From NCBI GenBank assembly GCA_902614225.1, contig CACMKJ010000004.1, positions 1-46,310 on the forward strand: 46,310 nt of DNA, given 5' to 3'. Of this stretch, positions 4,317 to 43,872 are shown piece by piece. The position numbers and the translations under genes were made by a program. The stretch comes from Rhodospirillaceae bacterium. GTDB lineage: Bacteria > Pseudomonadota > Alphaproteobacteria > TMED109. Each line of letters opens with the position of its first letter. The stretch's first letter is position 1. Under the pieces are notes generated by a model. The model made no database searches, was not told the origin of the DNA, and saw only the letters and a program-made list of their open reading frames with translations.

Positions 4317-4389
4317 GCCTAGGTAGCTCAGTTGGTAGAGCATGCGACTGAAAATCGCAGTGTCGGTGGTTCAATCCCACCCCTGGGCA
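4317..4389 (+). tRNA. tRNA-Phe (GAA)
   Basis: GCCTAGG/CCTGGGC acceptor stem, D-arm GCTCAGTTGGTAGAGC, anticodon loop CTGAAAA (GAA), T-arm GGTGG-TTCAATC-CCACC; CCA not encoded. Confidence 0.96.
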
Positions 4390-4573
4390 CCTCCAGTACT
4401 CTAAGCAAAGAGCTAATGTGAATTTATCAGATTGTTTCATTTTAAGAAAATAATTTTATACACCAAAGGTATACAATCTTTTTATTTTTAATTGATATAT
4501 TTAAATAAATTAATAAACCTTTATTGCAATAGGACCTCACGAACAGATAATTAATAGGTTAAACTAATTTATC

Positions 4574-6040
4574 TTAGTGTTTGCATTGAGTATTTCTATT
4601 TTTTTGTAAAAAAGCAATTTTTAAAGTTAATAAAGGAAGCAAGGTAGCAATAAAAAAAGAACAAAAAAGCAATGATTTAGATATAAATTCAGGAAAAATA
4701 TTAGTTGGTAATAAAATACCAATTAATAATGATTTAGAAAAATCTGGTGTTGGAAAAAACATAAGCCCTCCAATTAATCCTAAAACAATAGAAAAATAAA
4801 TATCTCTGTCTTTTATTGGTTTTTTATAAAAACTAAAAAATACGCTTATTACTGCAGCACAACAAAATAAGTCAGCTAACAGAAAAAGATATAAAATGCT
4901 TATACCTTGTGAAGAGATCAAAAAAGTAACTATTGATAATAAAACTATAAAAAATCTAGATGCTTTTTTAGTATTAAATCTTTTATTAAAAGTTTTTTCC
5001 CCATCAACTATTATTAAACTGGAAACAGCATTTAATATAGTATCAATGCTACTTACAGTTAAGGAAATCGCTAAAAAAACTATTATAACAACAATAAAAA
5101 TATTTTGCCTATCTAGTAACAATGAAAAAAATGCAAGATCAGGGTTTATACTTAAGTTTAAAGATACTGATATTAATCCGCAGAAACCAATAAAAAATAC
5201 TATAATAATACTAAATACAAAAGATATTATTAGACTAGTTTTTAGTACTTTATAGTTTTTTGCAGCATAAACTCTTTGCCAATTACCTTGATGAAATAAG
5301 TTAGTTGCAGCTACAGCAATAAAAAAAGTTATTCCAGATGTATAATTGGTGTAATAATTGGCACTTAATAGTAAAGGTTTATTTTCTCTAATAATGTTAA
5401 TATTGAAGTTTGAATCCTGTATAAAGATTATAGTAAAAAAAGTTATAATTAATAAAAATAATAATAATATAAATTGTACATTATCAGTAAATATTGAAGC
5501 TCGTAAACCACCATAAAGTGTATAAATCATAGAAAAAGTAATAATAATAAATGATGTAACCCATAAACTTGTATCAGATAAATATCTAATTAAAATTGAA
5601 ACAGCTGTGACTTCTGCTATCAAAAATACTGTCATATAAAAAAATGATAAAAGTAAAATAAGTTTAAATAGATTATTCCCAAATTTTAACCTTATAACTT
5701 CTATCAATGATTTTCCATTTGGAAACTGAGATCTAAATATTTTCCCCAAATAAATTAATAGAAAAAATGGAAAAGCGGTCCCTAATGCGTATCCAATTAC
5801 AGCTCCAATCCCTCCCCAGCTAGCTGCTGATGCTGGGCCAAATAAAATCCAAGAACCAAGTGCTGAAGCGATAAAACTGGTTGTTAATGGAAATATGCCT
5901 ATTGATCTATTGGCTACGAGGTAATTGTTAAGATCTAAAAATTTTCTTGAATAAAATATTCCAATTATCGCGAATAATACACTAGTGATTAAAATTATAA
6001 TAATTGATGAAAATTGACTTATTACATTTATATTTTGCAT
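4574..6040 (-). CDS. thiV: Sodium:solute symporter family protein, putative thiamine/pyrimidine-precursor transporter (ThiV-like)
   Basis: 488 aa polytopic SSS-family protein (AVSSLIIVDGEKTFNKRF, SLTVSSIDTILNAVSS); immediately downstream of a TPP riboswitch on the same strand. Confidence 0.8.
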   Translation of the reverse strand: MQNINVISQFSSIIIILITSVLFAIIGIFYSRKFLDLNNYLVANRSIGIFPLTTSFIASALGSWILFGPASAASWGGIGAVIGYALGTAFPFFLLIYLGKIFRSQFPNGKSLIEVIRLKFGNNLFKLILLLSFFYMTVFLIAEVTAVSILIRYLSDTSLWVTSFIIITFSMIYTLYGGLRASIFTDNVQFILLLFLLIITFFTIIFIQDSNFNINIIRENKPLLLSANYYTNYTSGITFFIAVAATNLFHQGNWQRVYAAKNYKVLKTSLIISFVFSIIIVFFIGFCGLISVSLNLSINPDLAFFSLLLDRQNIFIVVIIVFLAISLTVSSIDTILNAVSSLIIVDGEKTFNKRFNTKKASRFFIVLLSIVTFLISSQGISILYLFLLADLFCCAAVISVFFSFYKKPIKDRDIYFSIVLGLIGGLMFFPTPDFSKSLLIGILLPTNIFPEFISKSLLFCSFFIATLLPLLTLKIAFLQKNRNTQCKH

Positions 6041-6043
6041 ATG

Positions 6044-6108
6044 TTTCCCTTTCTGAATTACCGGACAGGTTCAATGGGTTTATTCTCAGCTAAACTAGCA
6101 CCCCTATG
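6044..6108 (-). promoter_or_regulatory. TPP riboswitch (THI element)
   Basis: Reverse strand reads ACATAGGGGTGCTAGTTTAGCTGAGAATAAACCCATTGAACCTGTCCGGTAATTCAGAAAGGGAAACATATG, matching conserved THI blocks GGGGTGC, GCTGAGA, ACCC-TTGAACCTG, CCGGTAAT; directly upstream of the SSS transporter ATG. Confidence 0.94.
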
Positions 6109-6170
6109 TATTAAAATTTAATTTAATACAATATTATATCAAAATTTAAAAAAAAACTGTTGAATAAAAT

Positions 6171-6743
6171 TCATAAATTGGGTCTTTTGTTTGAATTAAC
6201 CCAATTTTTTTTTAAAATTTCATATAAAATAGAATCTACAAAAGTGCCATTGTGATAATGACTTTGTTTTTTTTCTCCTACTTTTCTCCAACCTAAAAAT
6301 TTATTTAGTAAATAACTCTGAGGATTAATTTTAAGTGCGCTAGCATCACATCTATTTAAATTCATATGCATAAAAGCAAATTCAGTTAACAAAGACATTG
6401 TTTCCAATGCTATTTTAAAATTTCTATATTTTTTTTCTCCAATCAAAAGACCAGTTTGAGCACTCTGATGATATCTGTTTATATTACTTAAACTAACAAC
6501 ACCAATAGGTTTACTGCTAGATTTTGTACAAACTACAAAAATAACTCTTTTAGAGTCATCTTGATTTTCAATCATGTAGGCAATTTGCTGTTCAGGAGTA
6601 TTTGGTAATGGTACTCTTCCCAACATAATTAAATTTTCTAAATTATTAAACCACTCACTCCAAATTCCTTTTGCATCTTCTTTGGAAGGGCTTCTAAACT
6701 TTACTAATTTGCCTTCAATTAAAAATTTTTTTTTATTTTTCAT
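6171..6743 (-). CDS. GNAT family N-acetyltransferase (RimJ/RimL-like)
   Basis: 190 aa; PIGVVSLSNINRYHQSAQTGLLIGEKKYRNFKIALETMSLLTEFAF...; overlaps ACP gene end. Confidence 0.85.
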   Translation of the reverse strand: MKNKKKFLIEGKLVKFRSPSKEDAKGIWSEWFNNLENLIMLGRVPLPNTPEQQIAYMIENQDDSKRVIFVVCTKSSSKPIGVVSLSNINRYHQSAQTGLLIGEKKYRNFKIALETMSLLTEFAFMHMNLNRCDASALKINPQSYLLNKFLGWRKVGEKKQSHYHNGTFVDSILYEILKKNWVNSNKRPNL

Positions 6744-6984
6744 TTATTTGTCGATTCAATATTTTTTTTATATTCTTATAAGAGTTAAAGTTTTGCAGGT
6801 CACTAGTAGAAATTTTCACAGAAAAAGTTTTTTCTATTTCTAAAAGTAGATTTACTCCTTTTAAGCTATCCCAAATTTTTTCTTCTTTTTCTGAAAAATT
6901 ACTATAATTTTCAGTTTTTCCTTTAAATATTTTTTTAAAAACTTTTTTTAAATTTTTTTCAATAGCTATATTTTTTTTACTCAA
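6733..6984 (-). CDS. Acyl/peptidyl carrier protein
   Basis: 83 aa; phosphopantetheine-type site WDSLKGVNLLLEIEKTFSVKIS; 1 nt after the upstream gene. Confidence 0.85.
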   Translation of the reverse strand: MSKKNIAIEKNLKKVFKKIFKGKTENYSNFSEKEEKIWDSLKGVNLLLEIEKTFSVKISTSDLQNFNSYKNIKKILNRQINEK

Positions 6985-6985
6985 A

Positions 6986-9697
6986 TTAAAAAGCCCAAAC
7001 TTTAATTTTCTTTTCTAAATCTATGCGATTAATTTTTTTTATATTTATTACGGTTTTTATTTTATCTAAAGCATTTTTTATAGAATTTACACTTTCTGTT
7101 CCAAAAGAAACTCTAATGTATCTATTAGTGCTTACACCGTAAGCAGAGCCAGGAACCACTGAAACTTTATGGTTATATAGCAAATAGTTTGAAAAGTCTA
7201 CATCAGTTCCAATAAATCCTTCTATTGAAATAAAAAAATAGAAAGTAGAATCGCCACTCAAAAATTTTAAGTTTATTTTTTCTAAATATTTTTGAATGAT
7301 TATTCTTTTTTTTAATAAACTCATTATTTGTTTACTAGTATTTTTATATATTTTTTCATAATACTTATCTACATACATGCTTAAAATTGTTGGAGCACAG
7401 GTTATAATATGCTGGTTTAATTTAAGAATTTGTTTATTAATTTCAGGAGAAGAGATAATAAACCCTATTCGCCAACCAGATATTCCTAGATTTTTTGAAA
7501 GAGAATTTACTATTATTATACCCTTTTTATCAGGCGCAATGTTAGCCATTGATTTAAAACTTTTATATACAAAGTCTGAGTAAGCTTCATCTATTAGAAT
7601 AAAAATATTTTTATTTATTGCTATTTCATATATTTCTCTAAGTTCTTCCTCAGTATATACTTTGCCTCTAGGGTTATTTGGATTATTAATAATTAATAAT
7701 TTAGTATTTTTGGTTATAAATCTTTTATAATTTTTAACTTCAATGTTGAAAGGAATAAATTTAATTTTTGCTCCACAAAGTTTAGCATGTTCTTCATAGC
7801 TAAGCCAAGCAGGCTCTGGAATTAATACTTCTGATCCTTTATTAAGGATTGTTATCATAGCCATGAAAACTAAAGGTTTAGATCCAGCAGATATTATGAT
7901 TTCGTTTTCAAATACTGGAGCCTGATAATTCTTTTGATAATGGTTTGCAATCTTTTTTCTTAATTCAGGAATACCAGCAGTATCGCTATAATGATACCCT
8001 TTCTTAAAATCTAACCTTGTAAAATCATATTGAGGAATTTTAAAGAATGCTTCTCCTAAAGATAGAGCAGTTACACTTTCTCCAGCTCTTTTCATATTAT
8101 AAACAATTTGATTTATTTCTATTGAAGATGCAGGTTTAATTTTAGAAACTTTATCTGAAATATTAAAATTAAAATTTTTATTTTTTATATTATTTTTCAT
8201 GTAGTAAGGGACAAATTTTGCAAGTTCGACTTTCTTTGTCTTTCCGCTTTTGGTTTTAGGCAAAGAGGCTATAGAAAAGATTTCTTTTGGATGTTTTCGT
8301 TGATTAAAATTAATCATTATATAATTATTTAATTTATTTTTTGTAATATCAACAGAATTACTGCAAAAAAATAAAACGTAATCTTCTCCATAAAAATCAT
8401 CCTGAATAGGAACAGCAGCAATATCTTCTATTCCATCAACTATTTTACATCTTTCTTCTACTTCTCGAAGTTGAATTAAAAAGCCACCCTTTTTTATGAT
8501 ATCTCGAACTCTTCCATTTAATTTTATGATTTCATTTTTTATATTACAAATATCACCTGTTTTGAAATATCCTTCTTTATCTAGTGGTAAAGAAGTTTCT
8601 CCTTTTTCGTTTAAATATCCTAAAAACAAAAAAGGAGATTTTATTTTTAGTTCATTTTGAACTTTAGAGTTCTTTTTGAAATTTGTTTCAACATATGGTA
8701 AAAGTTTTCCTACTGTTCTGTCAGCCCTACTTTTATGGTCATTACTTTTCTCGGCAGAAATAAAGGTAGTTTCAGAGAGACCATAGTTTTCATATAGTGG
8801 AAAACCAAAAGTTTTTTCAAAGAGTTTTTTTTCTTTTAAAGAAATAGGAGCAGTCCCTAAAAAGCTAAATTTAATTGATGAGGCTACTTTTTTATTTTCT
8901 TGGATATTCGATCTTTTTGAAAGCTTTTGTAGCAATTTTAATAAACTAGGAACCAACCATAAAACATTTATTTTATAAAGTGCAACTGTTTTCCAAAAGT
9001 TTAATGCCATCAGGCTATCAAAAGACTTAGATACAATAATTTTACTACCCCTACTTAAAGGAATAAAGCATAGGTTATAGAGACCTCCTAAATAAGACAT
9101 AGGCAAGTAATTCCATATGCATGAATTTGAATTAAGTTCTTTGTAATGTTCTCCAAAAGCTAAAGCACTAGACCATAATCTATCAAGACAAATAATTATA
9201 GCTTTAGGTTTTCCAGTAGTGCCGCTTGTCATAATATATAATTTACCATTTTCATTATTTAATAAGCTATAGTTTTTTGGTAGCCAGGTAAAACCACATT
9301 GCAAACTAATTTTTTTTATTTTATTTCTTTTATGGAAGATTTTATCTATTTTATTTTTTTTTTCTGTTATTACTAATTTGCAATTAATTATATTATTAGA
9401 AAGATTAAGCTCTGAGTCAGTAGACTCATAAGAGCAAGGCATAATATTGAATCCACCTTTACCAGCAGCTAAAAATAATATTAAAAGCTCTAGACAATTA
9501 GGTAAAATAACCTGAAAGGCATCATTTTTTTTTAATCCACTTTCTTGTAAAAAACTAAGACATCTTTTTGTTAAAATATTAATTTCATTGTAAGTAAAAT
9601 TTTTCTTAGTTTCAAAATCTATAAATGCTATTTTGTTATTATAAGTATTTACAATTTGATTAAAACCTTTGCCAAAAGGAACTAAATTAGTCTTCAT
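6986..9697 (-). CDS. Fused AMP-dependent synthetase/ligase and class I/II PLP aminotransferase
   Basis: 903 aa; ligase motifs TSGTTGKPKAI, YENYGLSETTF, GYFKTGDI, GRVRDIIKKGGFLIQLREVEE, PKTKSGKTKK; aminotransferase motifs NNPNNPRGKVY, LIDEAYSDF, SLSKNLGISGWRIGF. Confidence 0.93.
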   Translation of the reverse strand: MKTNLVPFGKGFNQIVNTYNNKIAFIDFETKKNFTYNEINILTKRCLSFLQESGLKKNDAFQVILPNCLELLILFLAAGKGGFNIMPCSYESTDSELNLSNNIINCKLVITEKKNKIDKIFHKRNKIKKISLQCGFTWLPKNYSLLNNENGKLYIMTSGTTGKPKAIIICLDRLWSSALAFGEHYKELNSNSCIWNYLPMSYLGGLYNLCFIPLSRGSKIIVSKSFDSLMALNFWKTVALYKINVLWLVPSLLKLLQKLSKRSNIQENKKVASSIKFSFLGTAPISLKEKKLFEKTFGFPLYENYGLSETTFISAEKSNDHKSRADRTVGKLLPYVETNFKKNSKVQNELKIKSPFLFLGYLNEKGETSLPLDKEGYFKTGDICNIKNEIIKLNGRVRDIIKKGGFLIQLREVEERCKIVDGIEDIAAVPIQDDFYGEDYVLFFCSNSVDITKNKLNNYIMINFNQRKHPKEIFSIASLPKTKSGKTKKVELAKFVPYYMKNNIKNKNFNFNISDKVSKIKPASSIEINQIVYNMKRAGESVTALSLGEAFFKIPQYDFTRLDFKKGYHYSDTAGIPELRKKIANHYQKNYQAPVFENEIIISAGSKPLVFMAMITILNKGSEVLIPEPAWLSYEEHAKLCGAKIKFIPFNIEVKNYKRFITKNTKLLIINNPNNPRGKVYTEEELREIYEIAINKNIFILIDEAYSDFVYKSFKSMANIAPDKKGIIIVNSLSKNLGISGWRIGFIISSPEINKQILKLNQHIITCAPTILSMYVDKYYEKIYKNTSKQIMSLLKKRIIIQKYLEKINLKFLSGDSTFYFFISIEGFIGTDVDFSNYLLYNHKVSVVPGSAYGVSTNRYIRVSFGTESVNSIKNALDKIKTVINIKKINRIDLEKKIKVWAF

Positions 9698-10680
9698 ATT
9701 AAAGGTTTTCCTTCTTTAATTATTAATTCGTTATCAACAAATAAGTTGGCATTTTTAACAATAAAATCCAAATGAAAAGAAACTTCATTTTTACCACCTA
9801 CTGTAGAGTTTGAACCAAAACCAAAATGTATACAATTTGCTGCTCCTTCGTCTATGAGCATATTGCCACACAGTTTTGCTTTATCATTGAAACCAATTCC
9901 TAATTCAGCTAAAACTTTGGTTTTAGGATTGTTAAGTTCGTTAAATATTTTTTTTAATTCTTTAGATTCCTGCATTCCAGATATTTTACTTATCTTGCCT
10001 TTAAAAATATCCAAAGAAATAGGGTTTTTAAGAAGGCCTAATCTTGGGTGTGTTATTGACCCATCTACAATCAGCTTTCCAAAACTATAATCTTCGATAG
10101 GACTTATATTAACTTCCATATCTGGAGGTGATCCTAATTCACCAGGCTTTTGAACAAACCCAGGACAATTATTAGCAATTCTTTTATCAATATTTAACTC
10201 TAGGTTTGTGCCTAGGTTAGTTTTTACTTTTACTATTTTGCCTTCATTTAATATAGTTTCCATCTTCTTTAGCAGACTTAACTTATTTTTTTTTACTCCA
10301 AAAATTGCCTCATTTTCTAAAACATCTAAAGAATATTCAGCTAAACTTAAATATCTAGCACCTTTATTACAGGCATTACTTCTAGCTTTAGTGTGAGCAA
10401 GAGATTTATGTGTTAAAGCTAAGATTAAATTTGATTCTAACATTTTTTTCGATACGTTTAAGGGTGGCTCTAATCCGTGTTGACTGAGTATTTCTATTTT
10501 GGTTTTTTCTATAAATGTAGTGACGCTAGCAGCCGCGTTTTCTAATAATGGAATTAAATTTTCTGTAGTTTCATCATATATTAAAAGAAGTTTTTCATTT
10601 TGATTAAGGCTACCACAGTAATTTAATAGATAATCGGAAGCTTTTTTTCTTATTTCATTCTTGGAAAGACTTTTTCTCAT
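9694..10680 (-). CDS. M29 aminopeptidase / 2,5-dihydroxypyridine dioxygenase (NicX)-like metalloprotein
   Basis: 328 aa; C-terminal AELGIGFNDKAKLCGNMLIDEGAANCIHFGFGSNSTVGGKNEVSFHLDF resembles the M29-like metal-binding pattern; 4-nt overlap with next gene. Confidence 0.7.
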   Translation of the reverse strand: MRKSLSKNEIRKKASDYLLNYCGSLNQNEKLLLIYDETTENLIPLLENAAASVTTFIEKTKIEILSQHGLEPPLNVSKKMLESNLILALTHKSLAHTKARSNACNKGARYLSLAEYSLDVLENEAIFGVKKNKLSLLKKMETILNEGKIVKVKTNLGTNLELNIDKRIANNCPGFVQKPGELGSPPDMEVNISPIEDYSFGKLIVDGSITHPRLGLLKNPISLDIFKGKISKISGMQESKELKKIFNELNNPKTKVLAELGIGFNDKAKLCGNMLIDEGAANCIHFGFGSNSTVGGKNEVSFHLDFIVKNANLFVDNELIIKEGKPLI

Positions 10681-10699: not shown

Positions 10700-11860
10700 T
10701 TAGCTTTTATTGAGTTTTTCTTCAGCTAAACTAGCAAGGTAACTAGAACCAGTAGTCAAAATACTATCATTGAAATCATACTTTGGATTATGCAGTGGAG
10801 CAGAATTACCATTTCCAATCCAAGCGAAAGCTCCCGGAACCTTTTCTAAAAAATATGAAAAATCTTCTGACCCCATCATTGGAATTTGTGTAGAACTAGC
10901 TTTCATACCTACTACTTTTTTAGCTACTTCATAAGCGAATTTACTATTCGCTTGGTGATTAACTGTGGGAGGATAACCTGATTTAATTTTTATTTTGGAA
11001 TTTGCACCAAATAATTTGCATGTATTTTTTACTATATTACTGAATCTATCTTTTGCATAGGTACCTACTGCTTTATCATAATATCTAATAGTGCCTGTAA
11101 GTTCTGCTTCATCGGGAATAACATTATTAGCTTCTCCTGAGTTAATTGAAGCAACTGTAACCACTAGTGTTTCTTTAGGGTTCACGTTTCTCGATACTAT
11201 AGATTGTAAGTTCTGTATCAAAGACGAAGCACACAATATTGGATCAATAGAGTTAGCGGGCATAGCGGCATGGGCACCTTTACCTAAAATTTTTACTATA
11301 AAATTATCTGCGGCGGCTAACTTAGGTCCTTCGTCAACAGCAATTATACCTTTCCCTAAACCTGGAATATTGTGCATTCCGTAAATTTCATCAATCGGAT
11401 ATTTTTTAAATAGGCCATCATCTATCATAGCTTTTGCACCTGCATAGCCCTCTTCAGCAGGTTGAAATATTAAAACAACTCTACCCTTAAAGTTTCTTGT
11501 TTCAGATAAATACTTTGCCGCTCCTAATAACATAGCAGTATGTCCGTCGTGTCCACAGGCATGCATTTTTCCTTTAATTTTTGAGCAATATTTAGTATTG
11601 GTATTTTCCTCTGTTATTGGTAAAGCATCCATATCTCCTCTAAGTCCAATACTTTTACCAGATCCACTTTCAATTGTAGCAACTACACCAGTTTTACCAA
11701 AACCGGTTTCAATTTTATCAACTTTAAAGCTTTTTAAAAGTTGTACAACTTTTTTAGCAGTATTTTTTTCCTTATATGCTAGTTCAGGGTTTTCATGAAA
11801 ATAGTGACGCCACTGTGTAATTTCATTTTCAAACTTTGATATTCTATTTTTAATAGGCAT
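10700..11860 (-). CDS. M20 family amidohydrolase / carboxypeptidase (hippurate hydrolase-like)
   Basis: 386 aa; GLRGDMDALPITEENT, MHACGHDGHTAMLLGAA, FQPAEEGYAGAKAMIDDGLF, GSEDFSYFLEKVPGAF. Confidence 0.95.
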   Translation of the reverse strand: MPIKNRISKFENEITQWRHYFHENPELAYKEKNTAKKVVQLLKSFKVDKIETGFGKTGVVATIESGSGKSIGLRGDMDALPITEENTNTKYCSKIKGKMHACGHDGHTAMLLGAAKYLSETRNFKGRVVLIFQPAEEGYAGAKAMIDDGLFKKYPIDEIYGMHNIPGLGKGIIAVDEGPKLAAADNFIVKILGKGAHAAMPANSIDPILCASSLIQNLQSIVSRNVNPKETLVVTVASINSGEANNVIPDEAELTGTIRYYDKAVGTYAKDRFSNIVKNTCKLFGANSKIKIKSGYPPTVNHQANSKFAYEVAKKVVGMKASSTQIPMMGSEDFSYFLEKVPGAFAWIGNGNSAPLHNPKYDFNDSILTTGSSYLASLAEEKLNKS

Positions 11861-24432: not shown

Positions 24433-25491
24433 ATGAATTTTTTAGAAAAAATAGCTAAGCAAAAATATCCCTATGTAATAGCTGAGATAGGAATTAATCA
24501 TAATGGTTCAGTTGAATTGGCCAAAGAAATGATTGATGCAGCAAAATCTAGTTTAGCTAATTGTGTTAAATTTCAATTATTTATTACTGATGATTATATA
24601 TCTAATTTTGCTGGAAAAGCTGATTATCAAAATACTGATACATTTAAGAATGAAAGTCAGAAGGAAATTATTAAAAAAGCAGAATTAAGTATTGATCAAA
24701 TTGTAGAACTAAAAGATTATTGTAAATCAAAAAATATTGATTTTTTATGTACACCTTTTGAGATTAATAGTTTAAAAAAATTAATAAAATTAGAACCTGA
24801 AGCTATTAAAATTAGCTCATGTAATTTAACCAATTACCCATTTTTAAAAAAAGCTGCTTTATCTAAAATTCCAATTTTATTGTCTACCGGTATGGGTACT
24901 ATGAAGGAAGTAGAGAAAGCAGTAGCTATTTTTAGAAATGAAAATTGTCCTCTTTTATTATTTCAATGTACATCTAATTACCCTTCAAAAGAAGAAAATG
25001 CTAATTTGAATGTTTTAAAAACATTTAAAAAGAAATTTGATGTTCCTTTAGGTTTTTCAGATCATACTAAGGGTAATATGTGTGCTATTATCTCGGTAGC
25101 TTTAGGAGCTTTGATTATAGAAAAGCACTTTACAACATCTAAAGATTTGCCAGGTATAGATCAGAAGGCATCAATCACTCCTCAAGAATTAAAAAGTTTA
25201 GTTACTGAATTAAGAAACTCAAAATTAATTTTGGGAAGTTATAAAAAAGATAGAAGTGAAGAAGAAAAAAGTACATTCAAAGCTTTAAGGAGAAGTTTAG
25301 TTGCTAGTCGCAATATCAATAAGGGTGAAGTTTTAACAATTGATATGATTAATATTATGAGACCCGGGAATGGATTATCCACAGAATTTATTGATATGAT
25401 CATTGGAAATTCATGTAATAAGAACATTTTAAAACATAGTTTACTGAGATTATCTGATATAGATATAAAAGGAGAAAATAATGGAAAATAA
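24433..25491 (+). CDS. NeuB-family nonulosonic acid synthase with SAF domain
   Basis: 352 aa; YVIAEIGINHNGSVELAKEMIDAAK, STGMGTMKEVEKAV, LGFSDHTKGN, EKHFTTSKDLPGIDQKAS, C-terminal SAF-like region. Confidence 0.94.
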   Translation: MNFLEKIAKQKYPYVIAEIGINHNGSVELAKEMIDAAKSSLANCVKFQLFITDDYISNFAGKADYQNTDTFKNESQKEIIKKAELSIDQIVELKDYCKSKNIDFLCTPFEINSLKKLIKLEPEAIKISSCNLTNYPFLKKAALSKIPILLSTGMGTMKEVEKAVAIFRNENCPLLLFQCTSNYPSKEENANLNVLKTFKKKFDVPLGFSDHTKGNMCAIISVALGALIIEKHFTTSKDLPGIDQKASITPQELKSLVTELRNSKLILGSYKKDRSEEEKSTFKALRRSLVASRNINKGEVLTIDMINIMRPGNGLSTEFIDMIIGNSCNKNILKHSLLRLSDIDIKGENNGK

Positions 25492-26482
25492 AGTTTTAGT
25501 TGTAGGTGGAGGTTCAATAGGAAAAAGACATATTAGAAATCTATTACATATAAATTTTAATAGCGATGATATCCACTGTGTAGAACCTAGAGAAGATAGA
25601 GTAGAAGAGTTAAATAAATTAGGGATTAAAGATACCTATGAGAGTTTAAATGAAGCATTGAAAAAAAATAATTATACATTTAGTATATTATGTTCTCCAA
25701 CAATTTTTCACATTGATCAGGCAATTAGCCTAGCAAGAGAAAAGATCAATATATTCATAGAGAAGCCCCTGTCAGCAGACCTTAATAAAATTGATGAACT
25801 TCTTGCACAAGTAGAGAAAAATAAAATTAGAGTAGGAATAGCTTATGTATTTAGATTTTCCCCTTTAGTTGGTAAAGTTAAAGAAATTTTGAACACAAAT
25901 CTATTGGGAAAACTCTTATACTTTAGAGGTGAATTTTCTGAGTATCTACCAGACTTTCATCCTTATGAAGATTATAGAACTTTTTACATGGCAAAGAAAG
26001 AGCTCGGCGGAGGTTCTATATTAGATCAAAGCCATATTATTGATTTAGCATACTACCTATTAGGGGATTTTAAATCAGTTTTTGCTTTTAACTCTAAGGT
26101 ATCTAATTTAGAGATTAATACTGATGATATTGCAGAAATGTTAATAGAAACAAAAAATGGCGTAGTAGGTACAATACATACTGATATAATTGGAAGAAAC
26201 CATAAAAAAGAATTAGAAATAAAAGGTGAATTAGGTAATATAACAATCAATTTTTATGAAAATTCAGTAAACTTCTACTCAGCATCTGATAAGAATACAA
26301 TCATTTATAATAAATTCGAAAAAGATTTTAATCAAAACTATATTCTTGAATTAAAAAACTTTATCATGTACTGTCAAGGTAAAGAAGAGATTAAAACTTC
26401 TTTAAGCGACTCTATTAAAATTATGAAATTGATTTTTGCGGCACAAAAGTCATATAAAACAGGTCAAAGAGAGGGTTTATAG
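25481..26482 (+). CDS. Gfo/Idh/MocA family oxidoreductase
   Basis: 333 aa; VVGGGSIGKRHIRNL, FIEKPLSADLNKID, GGGSILDQSHIIDLAYYLLGD. Confidence 0.93.
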   Translation: MENKVLVVGGGSIGKRHIRNLLHINFNSDDIHCVEPREDRVEELNKLGIKDTYESLNEALKKNNYTFSILCSPTIFHIDQAISLAREKINIFIEKPLSADLNKIDELLAQVEKNKIRVGIAYVFRFSPLVGKVKEILNTNLLGKLLYFRGEFSEYLPDFHPYEDYRTFYMAKKELGGGSILDQSHIIDLAYYLLGDFKSVFAFNSKVSNLEINTDDIAEMLIETKNGVVGTIHTDIIGRNHKKELEIKGELGNITINFYENSVNFYSASDKNTIIYNKFEKDFNQNYILELKNFIMYCQGKEEIKTSLSDSIKIMKLIFAAQKSYKTGQREGL

Positions 26483-26486
26483 TTTT

Positions 26487-27359
26487 ATGACAGTTTATTT
26501 ATCTACGAGTTGCTACGGTAGAACAAGTGTTTCAGAAGCAATAGCAGCATGCCAAAAAGTTGCTGGTAATTTTATTGAGATATCAGCACCACATGATTAT
26601 CAAAGTGTAGAAGAACTTAAAGTTGTTTTAAGTAAATATAAAAATAAAGGCATTAATTTTTCTTTACATAATTATTTTCCTGCACCAAAAAAATCTTTTG
26701 TATTAAATATGGCTGCTTCAGACAGCTATACATATAATATGACTAAAGAGTTAGTTAAGAATGCCTTTTTGTTAGCTGATTATGCGGGATCTCCTATTTA
26801 TGGAATTCATGCTGGATATTTGGCTAAAGCTAAAGCAGGAAGTGACGGCCATTTTATTTTTTCTGACGAAGCAGAAAGCTATAAAGTTGCACTGGAGAAT
26901 ACCATAAAATTTGTTGACCATATTTTAGAATATAAGCCTAATAACGTGGTATTTGCGATTGAAAATTTGTTTCCCTCGCCAAAAAAAAGGCATTCTTTAA
27001 ATTGTACGTATGAAGAAATTAAAGAATTAATGAATTCATTGCCTGAAGAAGTAGGTATATTGCTTGATTTAGGCCATCTTAATATTTCGAGTAATATTCT
27101 AGGATTTAATAGAAATAATGCTATTGATAAACTTTTAGCAAATTTTTTTAATAGAATTAAAGAAATTCATATATCTGAAAATAATGGAATAAAGGATGAA
27201 CACCTCGCAGTAAATGAAAACAGCTGGCAATTGGAAGTACTTAAGTCTATTGCAAGTCAAGATAAACAGAAACAGATTATCTATTGTATTGAAGCAAGAA
27301 GAGCCTCAGAGAAAGAAATTTTAAATAGTGTAAATTTAGTAAACTTAATATTAAATTAA
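26487..27359 (+). CDS. Sugar phosphate isomerase/epimerase (xylose isomerase-like TIM barrel)
   Basis: FSLHNYFPAPKKSF, YGIHAGYL, VVFAIENLFP, GILLDLGHLNIS, EIHISENNGIKDEH. Start moved to ATG 26487 because ORF start 26436 lies inside the upstream gene. Confidence 0.85.
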   Translation: MTVYLSTSCYGRTSVSEAIAACQKVAGNFIEISAPHDYQSVEELKVVLSKYKNKGINFSLHNYFPAPKKSFVLNMAASDSYTYNMTKELVKNAFLLADYAGSPIYGIHAGYLAKAKAGSDGHFIFSDEAESYKVALENTIKFVDHILEYKPNNVVFAIENLFPSPKKRHSLNCTYEEIKELMNSLPEEVGILLDLGHLNISSNILGFNRNNAIDKLLANFFNRIKEIHISENNGIKDEHLAVNENSWQLEVLKSIASQDKQKQIIYCIEARRASEKEILNSVNLVNLILN

Positions 27360-27360
27360 A

Positions 27361-28467
27361 ATGAAATTTATACCAATAGCAAACCCTAAAATGTCAGAAG
27401 ATGAAGCAGAAGCTGCCTATAATGTAATAAAATCAGGATGGATTAGTATGGGAAAAAAAGTAGAAGAATTTGAAAATAATATAGCAGAATATTTAAATGT
27501 TAACCATGCAATAGTAATGAATAATGGAACTTCTACTCTAAATGCATCTTTGCTAGCATTAGACATTAAACCAGAAGATGAAATCATTGTTCCAAGTCTA
27601 ACATATATATCATCTGCAAATGTAGTCGAATATTTGGGAGCAAAATTAATACTATGTGATAACTCTTTTAATACTTTCAATGTAGAAGTTGAACATATAA
27701 AGTCAAAAATTACAAAAAAAACTAAAGCTTTTATGACCGTAGATTTAAAAGGTTTGCCTATTGACTATGATAGATTTGTAGAATTAAGTAATGCAACAGG
27801 AATTCCTTTTATAGCAGATAGTGCGGAATCTTTTGGTTCTATTTACAGAGGAAAAAAAGTTGGAGGCCAAGCATTGATTCATTCTTTTAGTTTTTTTGCA
27901 AATAAAAATATGACTACGGGCGAAGGAGGAGTATGTGTCACCAACAGTGAAGAATTAGCTAATAAGTTGAGAATAATTAGAAATCAAGGACAAGAAGGTA
28001 GATATAATCATACGCATTTAGGCAATAATTTTCGTATGACAGACATTTTAGCTGCTATAGGCATAGAGCAATTAAAAAAAATTGACAATATACTAGATGA
28101 AAAAGTTAAAATAGCAGAGTTTTATAGAAAAAATTTTGAACAAAGCAAATTTGTAAAAACTCCTTTTGTACCTGAATATGTAAATAGACCAAGTTGGTAT
28201 ATGTATGGAATTAAGGTAGATGAGCTACAAAGAGATGAGTTACTAAGACATCTAGAAAAAAAGAATATAGAATGTCGTTTATCTTTTCCTCCGGTACACA
28301 TACAACCTTATTTTAAAAATAAATATAATTATTTAAATGATGATTACCCCATAGCTTATAAGTCGTTTAGAAGTTTTTTAGATATTCCAATTTGGGCAGG
28401 AATAGGAGATGAAAAATTAATTTACATAATAAATGAAATCAATGGATTTTTAAGTAAAAAAATGTAA
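27361..28467 (+). CDS. DegT/DnrJ/EryC1/StrS family sugar aminotransferase
   Basis: 368 aa; NNGTSTLNASLLALDIKPEDEIIVPSLTY, IADSAESFGS, FSFFANKNMTTGEGGVC. Confidence 0.95.
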   Translation: MKFIPIANPKMSEDEAEAAYNVIKSGWISMGKKVEEFENNIAEYLNVNHAIVMNNGTSTLNASLLALDIKPEDEIIVPSLTYISSANVVEYLGAKLILCDNSFNTFNVEVEHIKSKITKKTKAFMTVDLKGLPIDYDRFVELSNATGIPFIADSAESFGSIYRGKKVGGQALIHSFSFFANKNMTTGEGGVCVTNSEELANKLRIIRNQGQEGRYNHTHLGNNFRMTDILAAIGIEQLKKIDNILDEKVKIAEFYRKNFEQSKFVKTPFVPEYVNRPSWYMYGIKVDELQRDELLRHLEKKNIECRLSFPPVHIQPYFKNKYNYLNDDYPIAYKSFRSFLDIPIWAGIGDEKLIYIINEINGFLSKKM

Positions 28468-28472
28468 GAAGT

Positions 28473-30161
28473 ATGAACAAAAGTTTTTCATATATTGAAC
28501 CTGACCCGTATTTAGTTCAAAAAGATGCTAGTATTTATGAGGCTATGCTTATAATAGAAAAAGGTGAAGAAAGAATTTGCTTTATTGTAGAAAAAAATAA
28601 AAAACTAATAAAAGTAATTTCAGATGGAGATATAAGAAGAGCTTTGCTAAATAAAATGAATTTAAATGAAAGAGTAATTAATATTCATAATAATTCGCCA
28701 AAATTAATACAAGAGGAACAAATATTTGAAGAAGCAGAAAAAGTTCTAAGTAAAAGAATTTTAGTTGCTCCAGTAATAAATAAGAATGGTATAATAGTAG
28801 GGGTATTAAGGCATAAAGACATTATTCCACAAATAGATATTAGATCTTATAAAGTCACTATAATAGGACTAGGGTATGTTGGACTTACGTTAGGTTTAGT
28901 TATGGCAGATCAAGGTTTTTCAATTTATGGATTGGATAAAGATCAAAAACTAATTGAGCAATTAAAAAATAAAATAGCACCTTTTCATGAGAGGGGTATA
29001 GAACACTTTATAAATAAACATATTAATAACAATTTAAAGATAGGTAATGATCAAAACGCCATAAACTCTGATATTTATATTATTACAGTTGGAACCCCAA
29101 TAAATAAATTAACAAAAAAACCAGAAGTTCAAAATATCTTAGAAGCAACAAGCATTATAGCAAAAAAGTTGAAAAAAAATGATTTAGTAGTTCTTAGATC
29201 AACTGTTCCAATTGGTTGTACTAGAAATGTAGTTATACCTAACTTGGAAGAGATATCTAGTTTAAAAGCAGGTAGAGATTTTAGTGTAGCATTTTGTCCT
29301 GAAAGAACAGCAGAGGGAAGAGCTTTAGAAGAATTAAAAAATCTTCCACAAATAGTAGGCGGGTTAGATAAAAAAAGTAGAGAACTGGGATTAAGATTAT
29401 TTGGCGAAAATACTCATACTGTTATTGATATAGGATCTTTAGAGGCGGCAGAAATGTGTAAATTAATGGATAACTCATATAGAGATACTCGTTTTGCTTT
29501 TGCAAATCAAATGGCTGAACTAAGTGAGAAATACGGTTTAAACATAAATTATCTAATACAAAAAGTTAATCTTTCATATGAGAGAAATACTATACCTTTT
29601 CCATCTCCTGGTGTAGGGGGAGCATGCCTTAGCAAAGACCCTTATATTTTAATAAATAACTTTGAAGCAAACAATCTTGATTGTCCTTTGACTAAAGCTT
29701 CTAGGAAAATTAATGAAGAAGCGCCAAATAATATATTTTATAAAACTACTAAATTTATGAAATCAGTAGGCAAGGACATAACAAAAGCAAAAATATTTGT
29801 TGTAGGTTTTGCATTTAAAGGAGAACCAGAAACATCTGATTTAAGAGATTCTACCACTATTTGGTTTATTAATAAGCTTAAGAAGCACAAAGTTAAAAAT
29901 TTATGGGGATATGATCCTATAGTTAAAAAAGAAGATATCTCTAACTTAGGGGTAAAGCCATGCTCTCTAGAACAGGGGTTTAAGAATGCAGATGCTGTTT
30001 TTTTTATGAATAATCATAAATCATATTTATCGCTCAATTTATCATTGCTTTTAGAGTTTATGAATGATCCTAGTTATTTTTTTGATGGCTGGAATATTTT
30101 TAATTCTAATGATGTAATTTCCTTTCCTGGAGTAACTTATTCAGGAATAGGTTTAAAATAA
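28473..30161 (+). CDS. CBS-domain pair fused to UDP-GlcNAc/ManNAc-type nucleotide sugar dehydrogenase
   Basis: 562 aa; N-terminal CBS-like ISDGDIRRALLNKM and VGVLRHKDIIPQ; then VTIIGLGYVGLTLGLVMADQGFSIYGLD, GVGGACLSKDPYIL catalytic Cys, VGFAFKGEPETSDLRDS. Confidence 0.93.
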   Translation: MNKSFSYIEPDPYLVQKDASIYEAMLIIEKGEERICFIVEKNKKLIKVISDGDIRRALLNKMNLNERVINIHNNSPKLIQEEQIFEEAEKVLSKRILVAPVINKNGIIVGVLRHKDIIPQIDIRSYKVTIIGLGYVGLTLGLVMADQGFSIYGLDKDQKLIEQLKNKIAPFHERGIEHFINKHINNNLKIGNDQNAINSDIYIITVGTPINKLTKKPEVQNILEATSIIAKKLKKNDLVVLRSTVPIGCTRNVVIPNLEEISSLKAGRDFSVAFCPERTAEGRALEELKNLPQIVGGLDKKSRELGLRLFGENTHTVIDIGSLEAAEMCKLMDNSYRDTRFAFANQMAELSEKYGLNINYLIQKVNLSYERNTIPFPSPGVGGACLSKDPYILINNFEANNLDCPLTKASRKINEEAPNNIFYKTTKFMKSVGKDITKAKIFVVGFAFKGEPETSDLRDSTTIWFINKLKKHKVKNLWGYDPIVKKEDISNLGVKPCSLEQGFKNADAVFFMNNHKSYLSLNLSLLLEFMNDPSYFFDGWNIFNSNDVISFPGVTYSGIGLK

Positions 30162-30170
30162 GGATATAAT

Positions 30171-31148
30171 ATGAGTAATAAAGTACTTATTACTGGGGGT
30201 ACAGGTTTTTTAGGAAGTGCACTTGCGATTAGGTTAGTAAAGTTAGGTTATAAAGTTTCGATTTTTGATAATAACCTTAGGGGCTCTTTAAATAAAATCA
30301 AAAATATTTTAGATCAAATTGAATTTGTAGAAGGAGATATACGAGATCCTGAGAAAGTTAAGAAAGTTACTCATGGCATTGATATCGTTTTCCATTTAGC
30401 ATTTATAAATGGAACTAAGTTTTTTTATGAAAAACCTGAATTAGTTTTAGACGTAGGTGTTAGAGGGGCTCTAAATATTTTAGATAGTTCTTTAGATTCT
30501 AAGGTAAAAACATTTATTATGGCATCTTCGTCAGAAATATATAATAAACCTACAAATGTGCCTACTAATGAGCATGAAAGAGCAATGATACCAGATATAA
30601 AAAACCCTAGATTCTCTTATGCTGGAGGTAAACTAATAAGTGAAATCTTAACTTTAAACTATCTAAGACGAACTAAAATAAGGGACCTTATATTTAGACC
30701 ACATAATATATTTGGACCAGATATGGGGAATGAACATGTTATTCCTGAGTTAATTAGAAAGATTTTTTTAGCAAGCAATCATCTAAAAAATAAAAAATGT
30801 TCTATTGAAATTCAAGGAACGGGAAAAGAGACTAGAGCTTTTTGTTATGTTGATGACGCAGTAGAACAACTAGTTTGTATGTTAAAAAATGGAATGAAAG
30901 GAGAGCTTTATAATATAGGTATGCAAAAAGAGATAAATATTAATAAACTCATAGAAGATATTTCTAATTTATTGGAAATTAATGTCGAAGTATTATCTTC
31001 AAATTTATTAAGGGGTAGCACTACAAGAAGGTGTCCTGATACTACTAAAATAAAATCTATTGGTTATAAAGAGTGTGATAACTATTATCTAGGGCTAGGT
31101 AAAACAATAAACTGGTATGTAAGTAATTTAAGAAAACAATACACATAA
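30171..31148 (+). CDS. NAD-dependent epimerase/dehydratase (extended SDR)
   Basis: 325 aa; ITGGTGFLGSALAIRLV, SSSEIY, YAGGKLISE (YxxxK), FRPHNIFGPDMG. Confidence 0.94.
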   Translation: MSNKVLITGGTGFLGSALAIRLVKLGYKVSIFDNNLRGSLNKIKNILDQIEFVEGDIRDPEKVKKVTHGIDIVFHLAFINGTKFFYEKPELVLDVGVRGALNILDSSLDSKVKTFIMASSSEIYNKPTNVPTNEHERAMIPDIKNPRFSYAGGKLISEILTLNYLRRTKIRDLIFRPHNIFGPDMGNEHVIPELIRKIFLASNHLKNKKCSIEIQGTGKETRAFCYVDDAVEQLVCMLKNGMKGELYNIGMQKEININKLIEDISNLLEINVEVLSSNLLRGSTTRRCPDTTKIKSIGYKECDNYYLGLGKTINWYVSNLRKQYT

Positions 31149-31153
31149 TATTA

Positions 31154-31852
31154 ATGTACAGAAATAAAAATATATTAGCTGTAGTTCCTGCTAGGGGCGG
31201 AAGTAAAGGTGTTCCGTTTAAGAATGTTCACATTTTAGCTGGTAAGCCCTTGATATATTGGACATTAGAACTGCTCCAAGAATTAGATGAACTTATTAAA
31301 ACATTTGTATCTACGGATAGTAAAAAAATTAAAGAAATAGTTGAAAAAATAGGTTTTAAACCTGAGGTTATGAGACCAGACAATATATCCGGAGATTATG
31401 CTAAAGATTTTGAAGTGATAGAGCATGCATTAAATGAAATGGAAAAAATAGATAATAAAAAGTATGATATTATATTAATGCTTCAGCCTACTTCACCCTT
31501 AAGAAAAAGAGAACAAATAATAGAAATATTAGATTTAATAATAGATAATAATTATGATAGTGTGTGGACAGTATCACCTACAGATTTAAAATTTCATCCA
31601 GTAAAACAACTAAAAATTGAAAAAGGGTTACTGAAGTATGTTATGAATGAAGGTTATAGATTACCAACTAGGCAATCTTTATATAATACTTATTATGTGA
31701 ATGGCTTAGCTTACGCTTTTTCTAGAGATTGTATTATTAAACAGAAATCAAGAATAGGAAAAAAAACAGCCCCATTTATTATTAAAGAAAAAGTTATAAA
31801 TATTGATACTTTAGAGGATTTTAAGAAAGCTGAAGAATATATTAAGAGTTAA
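31154..31852 (+). CDS. neuA: Acylneuraminate cytidylyltransferase (NeuA-like)
   Basis: 232 aa; AVVPARGGSKGVPFKNVHILAGKPLIYWTLE, VSTDSKKI, LQPTSPLRKREQI. Confidence 0.93.
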   Translation: MYRNKNILAVVPARGGSKGVPFKNVHILAGKPLIYWTLELLQELDELIKTFVSTDSKKIKEIVEKIGFKPEVMRPDNISGDYAKDFEVIEHALNEMEKIDNKKYDIILMLQPTSPLRKREQIIEILDLIIDNNYDSVWTVSPTDLKFHPVKQLKIEKGLLKYVMNEGYRLPTRQSLYNTYYVNGLAYAFSRDCIIKQKSRIGKKTAPFIIKEKVINIDTLEDFKKAEEYIKS

Positions 31853-35983: not shown

Positions 35984-36988
35984 ATGCAAGAATTTAAAAA
36001 TAAAAGTATTTTGATTTCAGGAGGAACTGGATCTTTTGGGAAAGAGTGTGTAAAGAACATTTTGAAACAAGATAAAGCTAAAAAAGTGGTTGTATTTAGT
36101 AGAGATGAACAAAAACAATATGAAATGGCAAAGCAATTTCCTGAAAATAAATATCCTAAAATACGATATTTTTTAGGAGATATAAGGGATTATAAAAGGT
36201 TAGAATTGGCCTGCTCTGGCATTGATATTATTATACATGCTGCTGCAATTAAAATTGTCTCTTCTGCGGAGTATAACCCAACTGAGTGTATAGTAACTAA
36301 TATCATAGGTGCCCAAAATATTATTCAAGCCAGTATTAAAAATAATGTGAAAAAGGTTATAGCGTTATCTACCGATAAAGCTGCAAACCCAATAAATTTA
36401 TATGGTGCTACGAAATTATGTTCTGATAAGTTGTTTGTAGCGGCTAACAACCTTTCTGGTGAGGTTAAAACTAAGTTTTCTGTTGTAAGATATGGAAATG
36501 TAGTTGCTTCTAGAGGAAGTGTAATACCATATTTCAAACAATTACTTTTAGATGGTAAAAAAAAATTACCTTTAACAAATATAGAAATGACAAGATTTCT
36601 AATTACTTTAGAGCAGGGAGTAAAGTTTGTTATAAATTGTGTAAATAATATGTCTGGTGGAGAAATTTTTGTACCGAAACTTTTTAGCATTAAAATTTTA
36701 GATTTAATAGAAGCTATGGCAGGAAAAGGAAATTATAATATAATAGGTCTTAGACCAGGAGAAAAAATACATGAAGTTATGATACCTAAAGAAGAGTCTT
36801 TAAATTGTATAGACATGAAAGACTATTACATAATTCAACCTATGTTTTCATGGTGGAATACGAAGCAGTTAAAGAAAAATCTGAAGAGCAAAGGAAAGCT
36901 TATAAATAAATCCTTTGAATATGCTAGTAATACTAATAAAGATTGGTTTACAAAAAAAGAAATTATGAAATTATTAAAAAGTATATAA
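35984..36988 (+). CDS. pseB: UDP-GlcNAc 4,6-dehydratase (inverting), PseB-like
   Basis: 334 aa; ISGGTGSFGKECVKNIL, VVFSRDEQKQYEMAKQF, GDIRDYKRL, HAAAIKIVSSAEYNP, LSTDKAANPINLYGATKLCSDKLFV. Confidence 0.94.
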   Translation: MQEFKNKSILISGGTGSFGKECVKNILKQDKAKKVVVFSRDEQKQYEMAKQFPENKYPKIRYFLGDIRDYKRLELACSGIDIIIHAAAIKIVSSAEYNPTECIVTNIIGAQNIIQASIKNNVKKVIALSTDKAANPINLYGATKLCSDKLFVAANNLSGEVKTKFSVVRYGNVVASRGSVIPYFKQLLLDGKKKLPLTNIEMTRFLITLEQGVKFVINCVNNMSGGEIFVPKLFSIKILDLIEAMAGKGNYNIIGLRPGEKIHEVMIPKEESLNCIDMKDYYIIQPMFSWWNTKQLKKNLKSKGKLINKSFEYASNTNKDWFTKKEIMKLLKSI

Positions 36989-37001
36989 GAATTAAGAACA
37001 C

Positions 37002-37991
37002 ATGGCTAATATTGCATTTATTGTCTCTACTAATAAAAAAAGAGGTCAAGGGCACTTAGCTAGATGTTTAAATATTAGAACTTTTATAAAAAAAAAAGTA
37101 GTTTGGTTTATTGATTATGATATAGCTGGCTTGTTTCCTAAAAATGACCTAGTAATTAAAAGTAAAAAAATATCATTAGAAAAAATACTTAATATTATTT
37201 CTAATCATTCTATAAGCTTTATAGTAATAGATAGTTATGACATTAATAATAAATTAAAAACAGAAATATCAAATAAAGTAAAAGTTATCACTATTGAAGA
37301 TAGGCTTTTTAAAATATATGGGTGCAAGGTCATTTATCCACATCCAGTAAGTATAAATAAAAAAAAATTAGATAATGTATATGCTGGTATAAGATATGCT
37401 CCAATAAATATTATTAAAAAAAAAAAAATAGAAAAATATTTATTTAAAAAAAAAGAAATAAATATTTTAATAAGTATGGGTTTTTACGACTCAAAAGGAT
37501 ATTCAGTTATAGCTATGAAGGCTGTTCTCAATCTCATTAAAATAGTTAAAATTAAAATTAATTGTGAAGTTTTTATAGGTAATTCTTGTCCTCAATTAAA
37601 AAATATTAAAAAATTAATAAAAGAAAATAGTTGTTTTAAACTACATTTAGATAATAGAAATATTAAAGATTATTATCCAAATTTTGATTTAGCTTTGGGG
37701 GCAATAGGAGTAAGTTTTTTAGAAAGAATTTATGTTGGAGTTCCATCTATAATAATACCACAAAATAAAATACAAAGAGAGCTAATAAGGTACTGGAAAG
37801 AAAAAGATGTGGCATTCTTAAGCGATAATAATATTTATTCAATGCTTAATAGTATGATAAATTTAATAGTATGTGATAATATTAGACTCAAGAAAGTAAA
37901 AAATGGTCAAGCTCTATTAGATGGACTTGGTGCCAAAAGAATAGTAAAAATAATTAAAGAACACAATGAAGATAAAATACCCATATTCTAA
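37002..37991 (+). CDS. PseG-like UDP-sugar hydrolase (copy 1)
   Basis: 329 aa; RGQGHLARCLNIRTF, IVIDSYDI, ALGAIGVSFLERIYVGVPSIIIPQN. Confidence 0.82.
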   Translation: MANIAFIVSTNKKRGQGHLARCLNIRTFIKKKVVWFIDYDIAGLFPKNDLVIKSKKISLEKILNIISNHSISFIVIDSYDINNKLKTEISNKVKVITIEDRLFKIYGCKVIYPHPVSINKKKLDNVYAGIRYAPINIIKKKKIEKYLFKKKEINILISMGFYDSKGYSVIAMKAVLNLIKIVKIKINCEVFIGNSCPQLKNIKKLIKENSCFKLHLDNRNIKDYYPNFDLALGAIGVSFLERIYVGVPSIIIPQNKIQRELIRYWKEKDVAFLSDNNIYSMLNSMINLIVCDNIRLKKVKNGQALLDGLGAKRIVKIIKEHNEDKIPIF

Positions 37992-39147
37992 GCCTGAGAT
38001 ACTGAACAGAGACATTCAAGAAGTAACAAAAGTACTCAGAAATGGTTATCTCACGCAAGGAAAAAAGATATATGAATTTGAAAAAGAAATATCTAAATCT
38101 TTTAATTCTAGGTATGTAAGCGTTTGTAATTCAGGAACAGCAGCCTTGCACATGATATATAAGGCTATAGGTTTGAATGAAAAAAATGGACTAATGACCA
38201 CTCCTATTACTTTTTTAGCTACAGCTAATGCAGCTAGAATGTGTAATGCACCTGTAGAGTTTTGTGATGTTGACCCTGAAACTGGGTTAATGACGGCAGA
38301 GCTATTAGAGGATGCTCTGAAAAATAGCCAGTTTAAGATTAAAGCAGTAACGATAGTTCATTTAGGGGGAAGACTTTGTGAATTAGAGGCAATAAGCTTA
38401 ATTTGTAAAAAATATAAATGTATTTTAATTGAAGATGCTTGTCATGCACCTGGAGCAGAGTACTTAGCAAGTGATAAAAATACTCATATTACAGGTAGTT
38501 GTAAATATAGTGATGCTTCGAGTTTTAGTTTTCATGCTATTAAACATATTACTATGGGAGAAGGAGGCTGTATTACCACTAATAATGAAAAAATATTTAA
38601 CTACGCTAACTTAATGAGAAATCACTGCATGCAAAGAGGAATTAATAATATAAAAAAAAGTAAAAATCTTTCATTGCCATGGTATTATGAAATGGAAAAA
38701 TTAGGTTGGAATTACAGAGCAGATGAAGTTAGTTGTGCATTAGGACTAAGTCAACTAAAGAGGTTGAAAAGTAATTTAAAAAAAAGAAGATTTATAGCTG
38801 AATATTACTATAAAAATATTAATATAAATAATTATTTCAGATTACCTCATAGAAATAAAAACCAATTATCAAATGCATGGCACTTATTTCCTTTATCTAT
38901 AGACTTTATTAAATTAGGCAAGAAAAGAGAAACTGTTATTAAAGAGCTTAATCAATATGGAATAGGAACACAAGTGCATTACATACCTCTTTTTATGCAA
39001 CCTTATTATAAAAAAAACCTTAAGAGAAAACTCAAAAATGCTCTTAATTATTATTATAAAACTTTAAGTATTCCAATGTATGTACAATTAAAAAAGACAG
39101 ATCTTGATTATATTATTTCAGTTTTGAATAAAGTGTTATCAAATTGA
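37966..39147 (+). CDS. pseC: UDP-4-amino-4,6-dideoxy-N-acetyl-altrosamine transaminase, PseC-like
   Basis: 393 aa; YPYSKPEILNRDIQEVTKVLRNGYLTQGKKIYEFE, VCNSGTAALHMIYKAIGL, SSFSFHAIKHITMGEGGCI. Confidence 0.93.
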   Translation: MKIKYPYSKPEILNRDIQEVTKVLRNGYLTQGKKIYEFEKEISKSFNSRYVSVCNSGTAALHMIYKAIGLNEKNGLMTTPITFLATANAARMCNAPVEFCDVDPETGLMTAELLEDALKNSQFKIKAVTIVHLGGRLCELEAISLICKKYKCILIEDACHAPGAEYLASDKNTHITGSCKYSDASSFSFHAIKHITMGEGGCITTNNEKIFNYANLMRNHCMQRGINNIKKSKNLSLPWYYEMEKLGWNYRADEVSCALGLSQLKRLKSNLKKRRFIAEYYYKNININNYFRLPHRNKNQLSNAWHLFPLSIDFIKLGKKRETVIKELNQYGIGTQVHYIPLFMQPYYKKNLKRKLKNALNYYYKTLSIPMYVQLKKTDLDYIISVLNKVLSN

Positions 39148-39162
39148 GAGGAATATTTATTT

Positions 39163-40209: not shown

Positions 40210-40212
40210 ACT

Positions 40213-42155: not shown

Positions 42156-42208
42156 TTTATTCTAAGGTAAGAAGTTAGATAAAAATTTAATTTAATAAAA
42201 AATAAGAT

Positions 42209-43866: not shown

Positions 43867-43872
43867 GTTGCT

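Follow-up and report, generated by a model that had tools for sequence, protein, structure and literature searches.

Acyl-decorated nonulosonic acids (NulOs) on flagella and the cell surface are already known as a kind of bacterial glycan. Campylobacter jejuni forms a Cj1295-dependent di-O-methylglyceroyl-Pse (PMC3068675), and the flagellin glycan of C. botulinum is Leg with N-methyl-Glu (PMC2674064; PMC13317340). The flagellin glycosylation islands of group II Aeromonas and of enterobacteria, as described in excerpts of the two reports, include an ACP, an AMP-synthetase, a reductase and LuxC/LuxE (PMC7874193, PMC4875605). The biosynthesis of the odd acyl groups on flagellar NulOs (di-O-methylglyceroyl and N-methyl-glutamyl) is not fully explained. 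In this study we characterized in silico a four-gene cassette in a stretch of 46,310 nt (hereafter the window). We propose, with a probability of roughly two in three, that this cassette is horizontally spread and that its products form an unusual acyl group, probably amino-acid-like, and attach it to a NulO, or to the nucleotide-sugar precursor of one, destined for flagellin or cell-surface glycans.

The cassette occupies positions 6171-10680 on the minus strand. Its first gene encodes an M29/NicX-fold metalloenzyme (9694..10680, 328 aa) and is followed by genes for an AMP-ligase/aminotransferase fusion (6986..9697, 903 aa), a free-standing ACP (6733..6984, 83 aa, TTG start) and a GNAT acyltransferase that is distantly PseH-like (6171..6743, 190 aa). 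The M29-like and fusion genes overlap by 4 nt, the fusion and ACP genes are separated by 1 nt, and the ACP and GNAT genes overlap by 11 nt. Gene calls bore out this gene set, the coordinates and the three junctions as the initial annotation had given them. Its remark that no common named pathway has exactly this set also held, as a search of the open-access literature (outside which most subscription journals lie) found no description of an M29-like, AMP-ligase, aminotransferase and ACP gene set. The same four genes recur in the same order in another genus with different flanks, at 71-74% identity (53% for the ACP), and the arrangement is thus not due to chance.

The fusion had been annotated as a ligase and an aminotransferase without an internal carrier, the carrier being encoded next door. 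Pfam profiles recovered the two expected domains, AMP-binding (PF00501, residues 15-362, E 7.6e-44) and Aminotran_1_2 (PF00155, residues 562-880, E 1.5e-60), together with AMP-binding_C at residues 412-486 slightly under its cut-off; the profile search found no carrier domain between the halves, and the neighboring ACP was confirmed, although its PF00550 score lies only at the cut-off (20.9 vs 20.8). The ligase half (residues ~1-500; DNA ~8200-9697, minus strand) contains TSGTTG, ENYGLSET, TGD, GRVRD (GRxRD) and SGK, the last with the C-terminal catalytic Lys, and these core adenylation motifs place it in the AMP-ligase (adenylate-forming) superfamily. The PLP half (residues ~510-900; DNA ~6986-8180, minus strand) contains the PLP Lys in SLSKN, NNPNNP, DEAYSDF and a C-terminal Arg in YIRVSFG; the PLP Lys, Asn, Asp and alpha-carboxylate Arg are invariant in nine homologues, as is characteristic of class I PLP aminotransferases. 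The initial annotation had allowed that one half might lack catalytic residues; by these motifs both are intact, and both look catalytically complete as judged from sequence.

Among solved structures, the ligase is closest to malonyl-, oxalyl- and coumaroyl-CoA ligases. Alpha-amino-acid NRPS adenylation domains use an Asp235-type pocket residue; the pocket segment of the present ligase, a position mapped roughly via acyl-CoA ligases, is LPMSYLGGLYNL (LPxSYLGG) and contains no Asp. The PLP half is closest to aspartate aminotransferases, the nearest of which we take to be archaeal and Thermotoga enzymes. The two halves are fused in the window, in L014 and in L021, and are encoded by separate adjacent genes at other loci. 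The L021 fusion (3361-6177, 938 aa), from a Parcubacteria bacterium, has another gene order and may be a separate, perhaps independent, fusion because its ligase half is very divergent. The AMP-ligase and PLP trees were concordant on four pairs, which is consistent with transfer of the two as a unit.

The M29-like protein scored below the gathering score of Pfam M29 (PF02073, 22.2 vs 27) and is smaller than the M29 peptidases. Its AF2 model (pLDDT 94.6) matched NicX with a TM of 0.84 in Foldseek, the M29 peptidases PepS, AmpT and AmpS with TMs of 0.61-0.70 (E <= 8e-16) and, more weakly, the crocagin proteins CgnE/CgnB; the fold is thus common to NicX, these peptidases and the cassette protein. 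No variation occurs at E189, E259, H285, H303 or D305 across 10 homologues, and in the alignment these residues coincide with PepS positions that we take to be the M29 metal ligands (two Glu, His, His-x-Asp). The protein therefore combines an M29/NicX-type fold with the M29 metal-ligand pattern. NicX presumably binds iron through H265, H318 and D320; the position of H265 is E259 in the cassette protein, whereas the other two match H303 and D305. This replacement disfavors a NicX-like dioxygenase role, and, taken with the invariant M29 ligand set, makes a hydrolase-type role more likely than ring cleavage.

More distant M29 proteins are also encoded by members of the family to which G772 belongs (E 1e-63 to 1e-75). 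Their neighbors have no similarity to cassette or NulO reference proteins, and they were therefore treated as another branch and rejected as cassette members; in the sampled class of G772, the cassette was found only in G772 itself. A separate M29-like branch (L044-L048) shares ~28-36% identity with cassette members, and two recurrent neighbor genes precede the M29-like gene in L046-L048. Plasmids contained only distant M29/NicX relatives (<= 32% identity), no viral contig was confirmed to carry the M29-like protein or the cassette, and PHROGs gave only generic matches.

The position of the cassette in the genome was compared with that in related genomes. On one side it borders an M20 amidohydrolase gene (10700..11860, minus strand), a flank conserved in 23 of the 28 family genomes and possibly co-transcribed with the cassette; on the other it borders an SSF transporter gene (4574..6040, minus strand). 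A TPP-riboswitch-like element (6028-6115, minus strand; 44.5 bits vs the Rfam cut-off of 54.3) lies directly before the SSF gene, suggesting a transporter of thiamine or a thiamine precursor; with this leader of its own, the SSF gene stands outside the cassette operon. In three sister genomes (G017, G018 and G020) the SSF gene lies directly beside the M20 and PduO genes and the cassette is absent; G018 has extra genes between the SSF and rhodanese genes. Both flanks were accordingly rejected as operon members, being conserved and present without the cassette. In the fourth sister, G019, the SSF gene is absent and the same site, between the rhodanese and M20 genes, holds NeuB, a CMP-transferase/class III aminotransferase fusion, an ATP-grasp and an HMGL-like gene. 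Because the site is empty in three sisters and holds NulO genes in the fourth, we regard the cassette as an insertion at a variable site, next to tRNA-Phe (4317..4391, plus strand), that also takes NulO genes. The G019 set (L074 3644-9228), with its HMGL/homocitrate-synthase-like gene, is another possible NulO-substituent set. Genes resembling pqqE, pqqD, pqqC and pqqB of PQQ synthesis, strongly conserved in the sister genomes, lie at 1-3095 of the window (TENA/PqqC match by profile).

The initial annotation was right about the cassette but missed its NulO setting in the same window. A large NulO (pseudaminic/legionaminic-acid-like) cluster lies at 24.4-44.9 kb on the plus strand, with 14 kb of unrelated genes between it and the cassette. 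Its first part (24433..31852) encodes a NeuB-type synthase (24433-25491), a Gfo/Idh-like oxidoreductase (25481-26482), a PseC/LegC-like aminotransferase (27361-28467), a CBS/nucleotide-sugar dehydrogenase (28473-30161), a LegB-like dehydratase (30171-31148) and a PseF-like CMP transferase (31154-31852). The second part (35984..44868) encodes PseB (35984-36988, over the NCBIfam cut-off), PseG-like (37002-37991) and PseC-like (37966-39147) proteins, an ATP-grasp protein (39163-40209), a CMP transferase (40213-40995), a second PseG-like protein (42209-43171), another CMP transferase (43168-43866) and a NeuB/PseI-type synthase (43873-44868). In total, the cluster has two NeuB-type, two PseC/LegC-like and two PseG-like genes, three CMP transferase genes, PseB and a LegB-like gene; no PseH-like gene is among its annotated genes. 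By profile, the flagellins of this genome are encoded on another contig (C22).

We then consider how far the gene set and its NulO setting extend to other genomes. The fusion is present in 2 of the 28 genomes of the order (counting the window's own), and among 385 genomes searched in the class one more carrier was found, G233, in which the halves are split. Motifs from the M29 alignment, scanned against 84,980 species genomes, yielded nine loci, from Pseudomonadota, Bacillota, Cyanobacteriota (a Prochlorococcus single cell), Lentisphaerota and a Parcubacteria bacterium, and a profile search added G412 (L035), giving ten loci besides the window. The AMP-ligase gene adjoins the M29-like gene in nine of the ten and the aminotransferase gene does so as well in eight; the exceptions are L019, with the M29-like gene alone, and L022, with M29-like and AMP-ligase genes and no aminotransferase. 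Neighborhood conservation as initially expected thus holds for the linkage of ligase, PLP enzyme and carrier, and the objection that the fusion might be unlinked elsewhere fails; the GNAT did not prove to be a constant member, an AAC(3)-like protein being found in six loci. In G450, a cassette-type aminotransferase gene lies beside a truncated AMP-ligase gene without an M29-like gene (L083 1135-2822), as a decayed or alternative cassette.

A NulO synthase gene lies within ~11 kb in seven of the eight loci that have M29-like, ligase and aminotransferase genes, two of them directly at flagellin genes. NeuB was found within ~11 kb in L014/L049, L015, L017, L018, L020 and L021 and at ~8 kb in G233 (L013/L016); it was not found near the cassette in G412 (L035), and the stretch of L022 has neither an aminotransferase gene nor NeuB. 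All eleven cassette genomes have NeuB, yet 9 of 14 control genomes also have a PF03102 match, and therefore only the local linkage counts. DUF4910-type proteins, which we take to be relatives of the aminopeptidase-like protein Cj1295, are encoded with the cassette in L016, L018, L020 and L022; in the window, the cassette was not seen to have a DUF4910 neighbor. WbuX/PseA-type N-acetyl sugar amidotransferases are encoded at L022 684-1802 and L050 11971-13095, with a HisH-like gene near each, suggesting acetamidino decoration there as well.

The local linkage bears on the proposal of the initial annotation that the operon makes a free small molecule N-acetylated by the GNAT, which is not supported, given the occurrence of the cassette in or near NulO sugar clusters, including that of the window. 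A broader version, in which an amino-acid-derived small molecule or signal is built on the ACP and released and the NulO proximity reflects a shared variable island, is in keeping with the resemblance to minimal thiotemplate systems and the lack of a NulO gene near L035, and variable islands do gather unrelated genes. However, the NulO synthase link recurs in seven other loci of four phyla in addition to the window, and the cassette showed no recurring thioesterase, exporter or condensation gene (neighbors without a reference match are annotated in part); we consider this version very improbable.

The glycan concerned was also evaluated. On one side of the G233 cassette lie genes for flagellins, FlgL and FlgK, and on its other side are DUF4910, FlmG-like and Maf genes; NulO genes, a flagellin-specific glycosyltransferase and flagellins thus occur together in G233 as in a flagellin glycosylation island. 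In L017, a flagellin gene lies ~0.4 kb after the terminal ACP gene of the cassette, and the same genome has a flagellin profile match. The profile search detected no flagellin in Prochlorococcus G770 or Parcubacteria G773, which ties the cassette to NulOs rather than to flagella alone; the Prochlorococcus single-cell locus L018, where no flagellin was detected, combines the cassette with genes for NeuB, a CMP transferase and DUF4910. The cassettes in these two genomes, together with that of G007, which lies within a large region resembling surface-polysaccharide genes, could instead decorate another surface glycan (O-antigen, capsule or S-layer) with amino acids or acyl groups. Given that the recurrent neighbor is NeuB and that in G233 and L017 flagellin genes directly adjoin the cassette, we regard such a target as unlikely.

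The acyltransferase is the variable member of the cassette. The ACP has its phosphopantetheine serine in a DSL motif, this serine being kept in all eight aligned cassette ACPs, and it weakly matches DltC (NCBIfam). The GNAT matches PF13302 (E 8e-13) and falls far short of PseH (TIGR03585, 39.1 bits vs the cut-off of 93.1), and is therefore not assigned to that family; its AlphaFold model (pLDDT 35) was left out of the analysis. A GNAT fills the acyltransferase slot in the window lineage and in L014, and a non-homologous aminoglycoside-3-N-acetyltransferase-like (AAC(3)-like) protein is encoded near the ACP in L015, L016, L018, L020, L021 and L035. The GNAT is thus not universal, and its earlier assignment as the step that N-acetylates a free product is not supported. 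In the window it might still be an ordinary replacement of PseH/LegH that uses acetyl-CoA to N-acetylate the 4-amino sugar, the genes for the ACP, AMP-ligase and PLP enzyme then belonging to a separate nearby surface-lipid or glycan step. It is indeed the best PseH match in the window's genome G000 (38.9 bits) and in G007 (41.1 bits), though under the cut-off, and neither an annotated PseH in the window cluster nor another good match in G000 (55% complete) was found. On the other hand, the GNAT gene overlaps the ACP gene by 11 nt in the window lineage, its pyrophosphate loop is atypical (RNFKIA vs canonical R/QxxGxG/A, without the usual Gly), an unrelated AAC(3)-like enzyme lies near the ACP elsewhere, and L015 encodes a true PseH in addition to its AAC(3)-like protein; an ordinary replacement thus appears clearly unlikely. 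Non-homologous replacement of the acyltransferase beside a carrier fits transfer of a carrier-bound acyl group to an amine. Since the cassette lies in or near NulO clusters, including that of the window, transfer of the ACP-bound group to a sugar amine is the most likely role of this enzyme.

Under the NulO-acylation model, the AMP-ligase would adenylate a carboxylic acid and load it onto the serine-linked arm of the ACP; the PLP domain, of aspartate-aminotransferase type, would place an amino group on a keto acid, either before it is loaded or afterwards. A hydrolytic trimming or deacylation step may fall to the M29-fold metalloenzyme, and the GNAT, or elsewhere the AAC(3)-like protein, would move the acyl group from the ACP to the sugar amine; in the marine lineage, the GNAT perhaps acts at the point of the PseH step. 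We hold each of these steps with less confidence than the general model. In our judgment, the odds are even that the cassette represents a previously undescribed pathway, present in four phyla or more, whose AMP-ligase/PLP pair, helped by a new M29-fold enzyme, builds an amino-acid-like acyl group on its own carrier protein for transfer to NulOs. If so, the resulting aminoacylated sialic-acid-like sugars of flagella and cell surfaces would form a class that is as yet uncharacterized. The cassette provides concrete, testable genes for the carrier, loader, PLP and acyltransferase slots, common to marine Alphaproteobacteria, Prochlorococcus, Firmicutes and a candidate-phylum bacterium; it places a functionally uncharacterized branch of the M29/NicX fold in a likely context and points to a possible way in which abundant marine cells diversify their surface sugars.

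Compared with known systems, the cassette resembles the D-alanyl ligase and carrier pair DltA/DltC in having a free-standing AMP-ligase and a small ACP for surface modification, with the weak DltC match noted above, but its ligase is nearer to malonyl-, oxalyl- and coumaroyl-CoA ligases, it has a PLP partner, and no DltB/DltD-type gene was seen. Leg with N-methyl-Glu in C. botulinum shows that a flagellar NulO can bear an amino-acid acyl group, although the genes assigned to it are putative and no cassette homologue was shown among them. The Aeromonas and enterobacterial islands likewise place an ACP and an AMP-ligase inside NulO or flagellin glycosylation islands, but their other genes are of fatty-acid type (ketoreductase, LuxE and LuxC), and the excerpts of the two reports mention neither an M29-like gene nor a class I PLP partner. 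The Pse decoration locus of C. jejuni shares with the cassette the acyl decoration of an amino group on a flagellar NulO (PMC3068675); the cassette differs from it in adding an AMP-ligase, an aspartate-aminotransferase-like PLP enzyme and an M29-like protein, and in occurring in several phyla.
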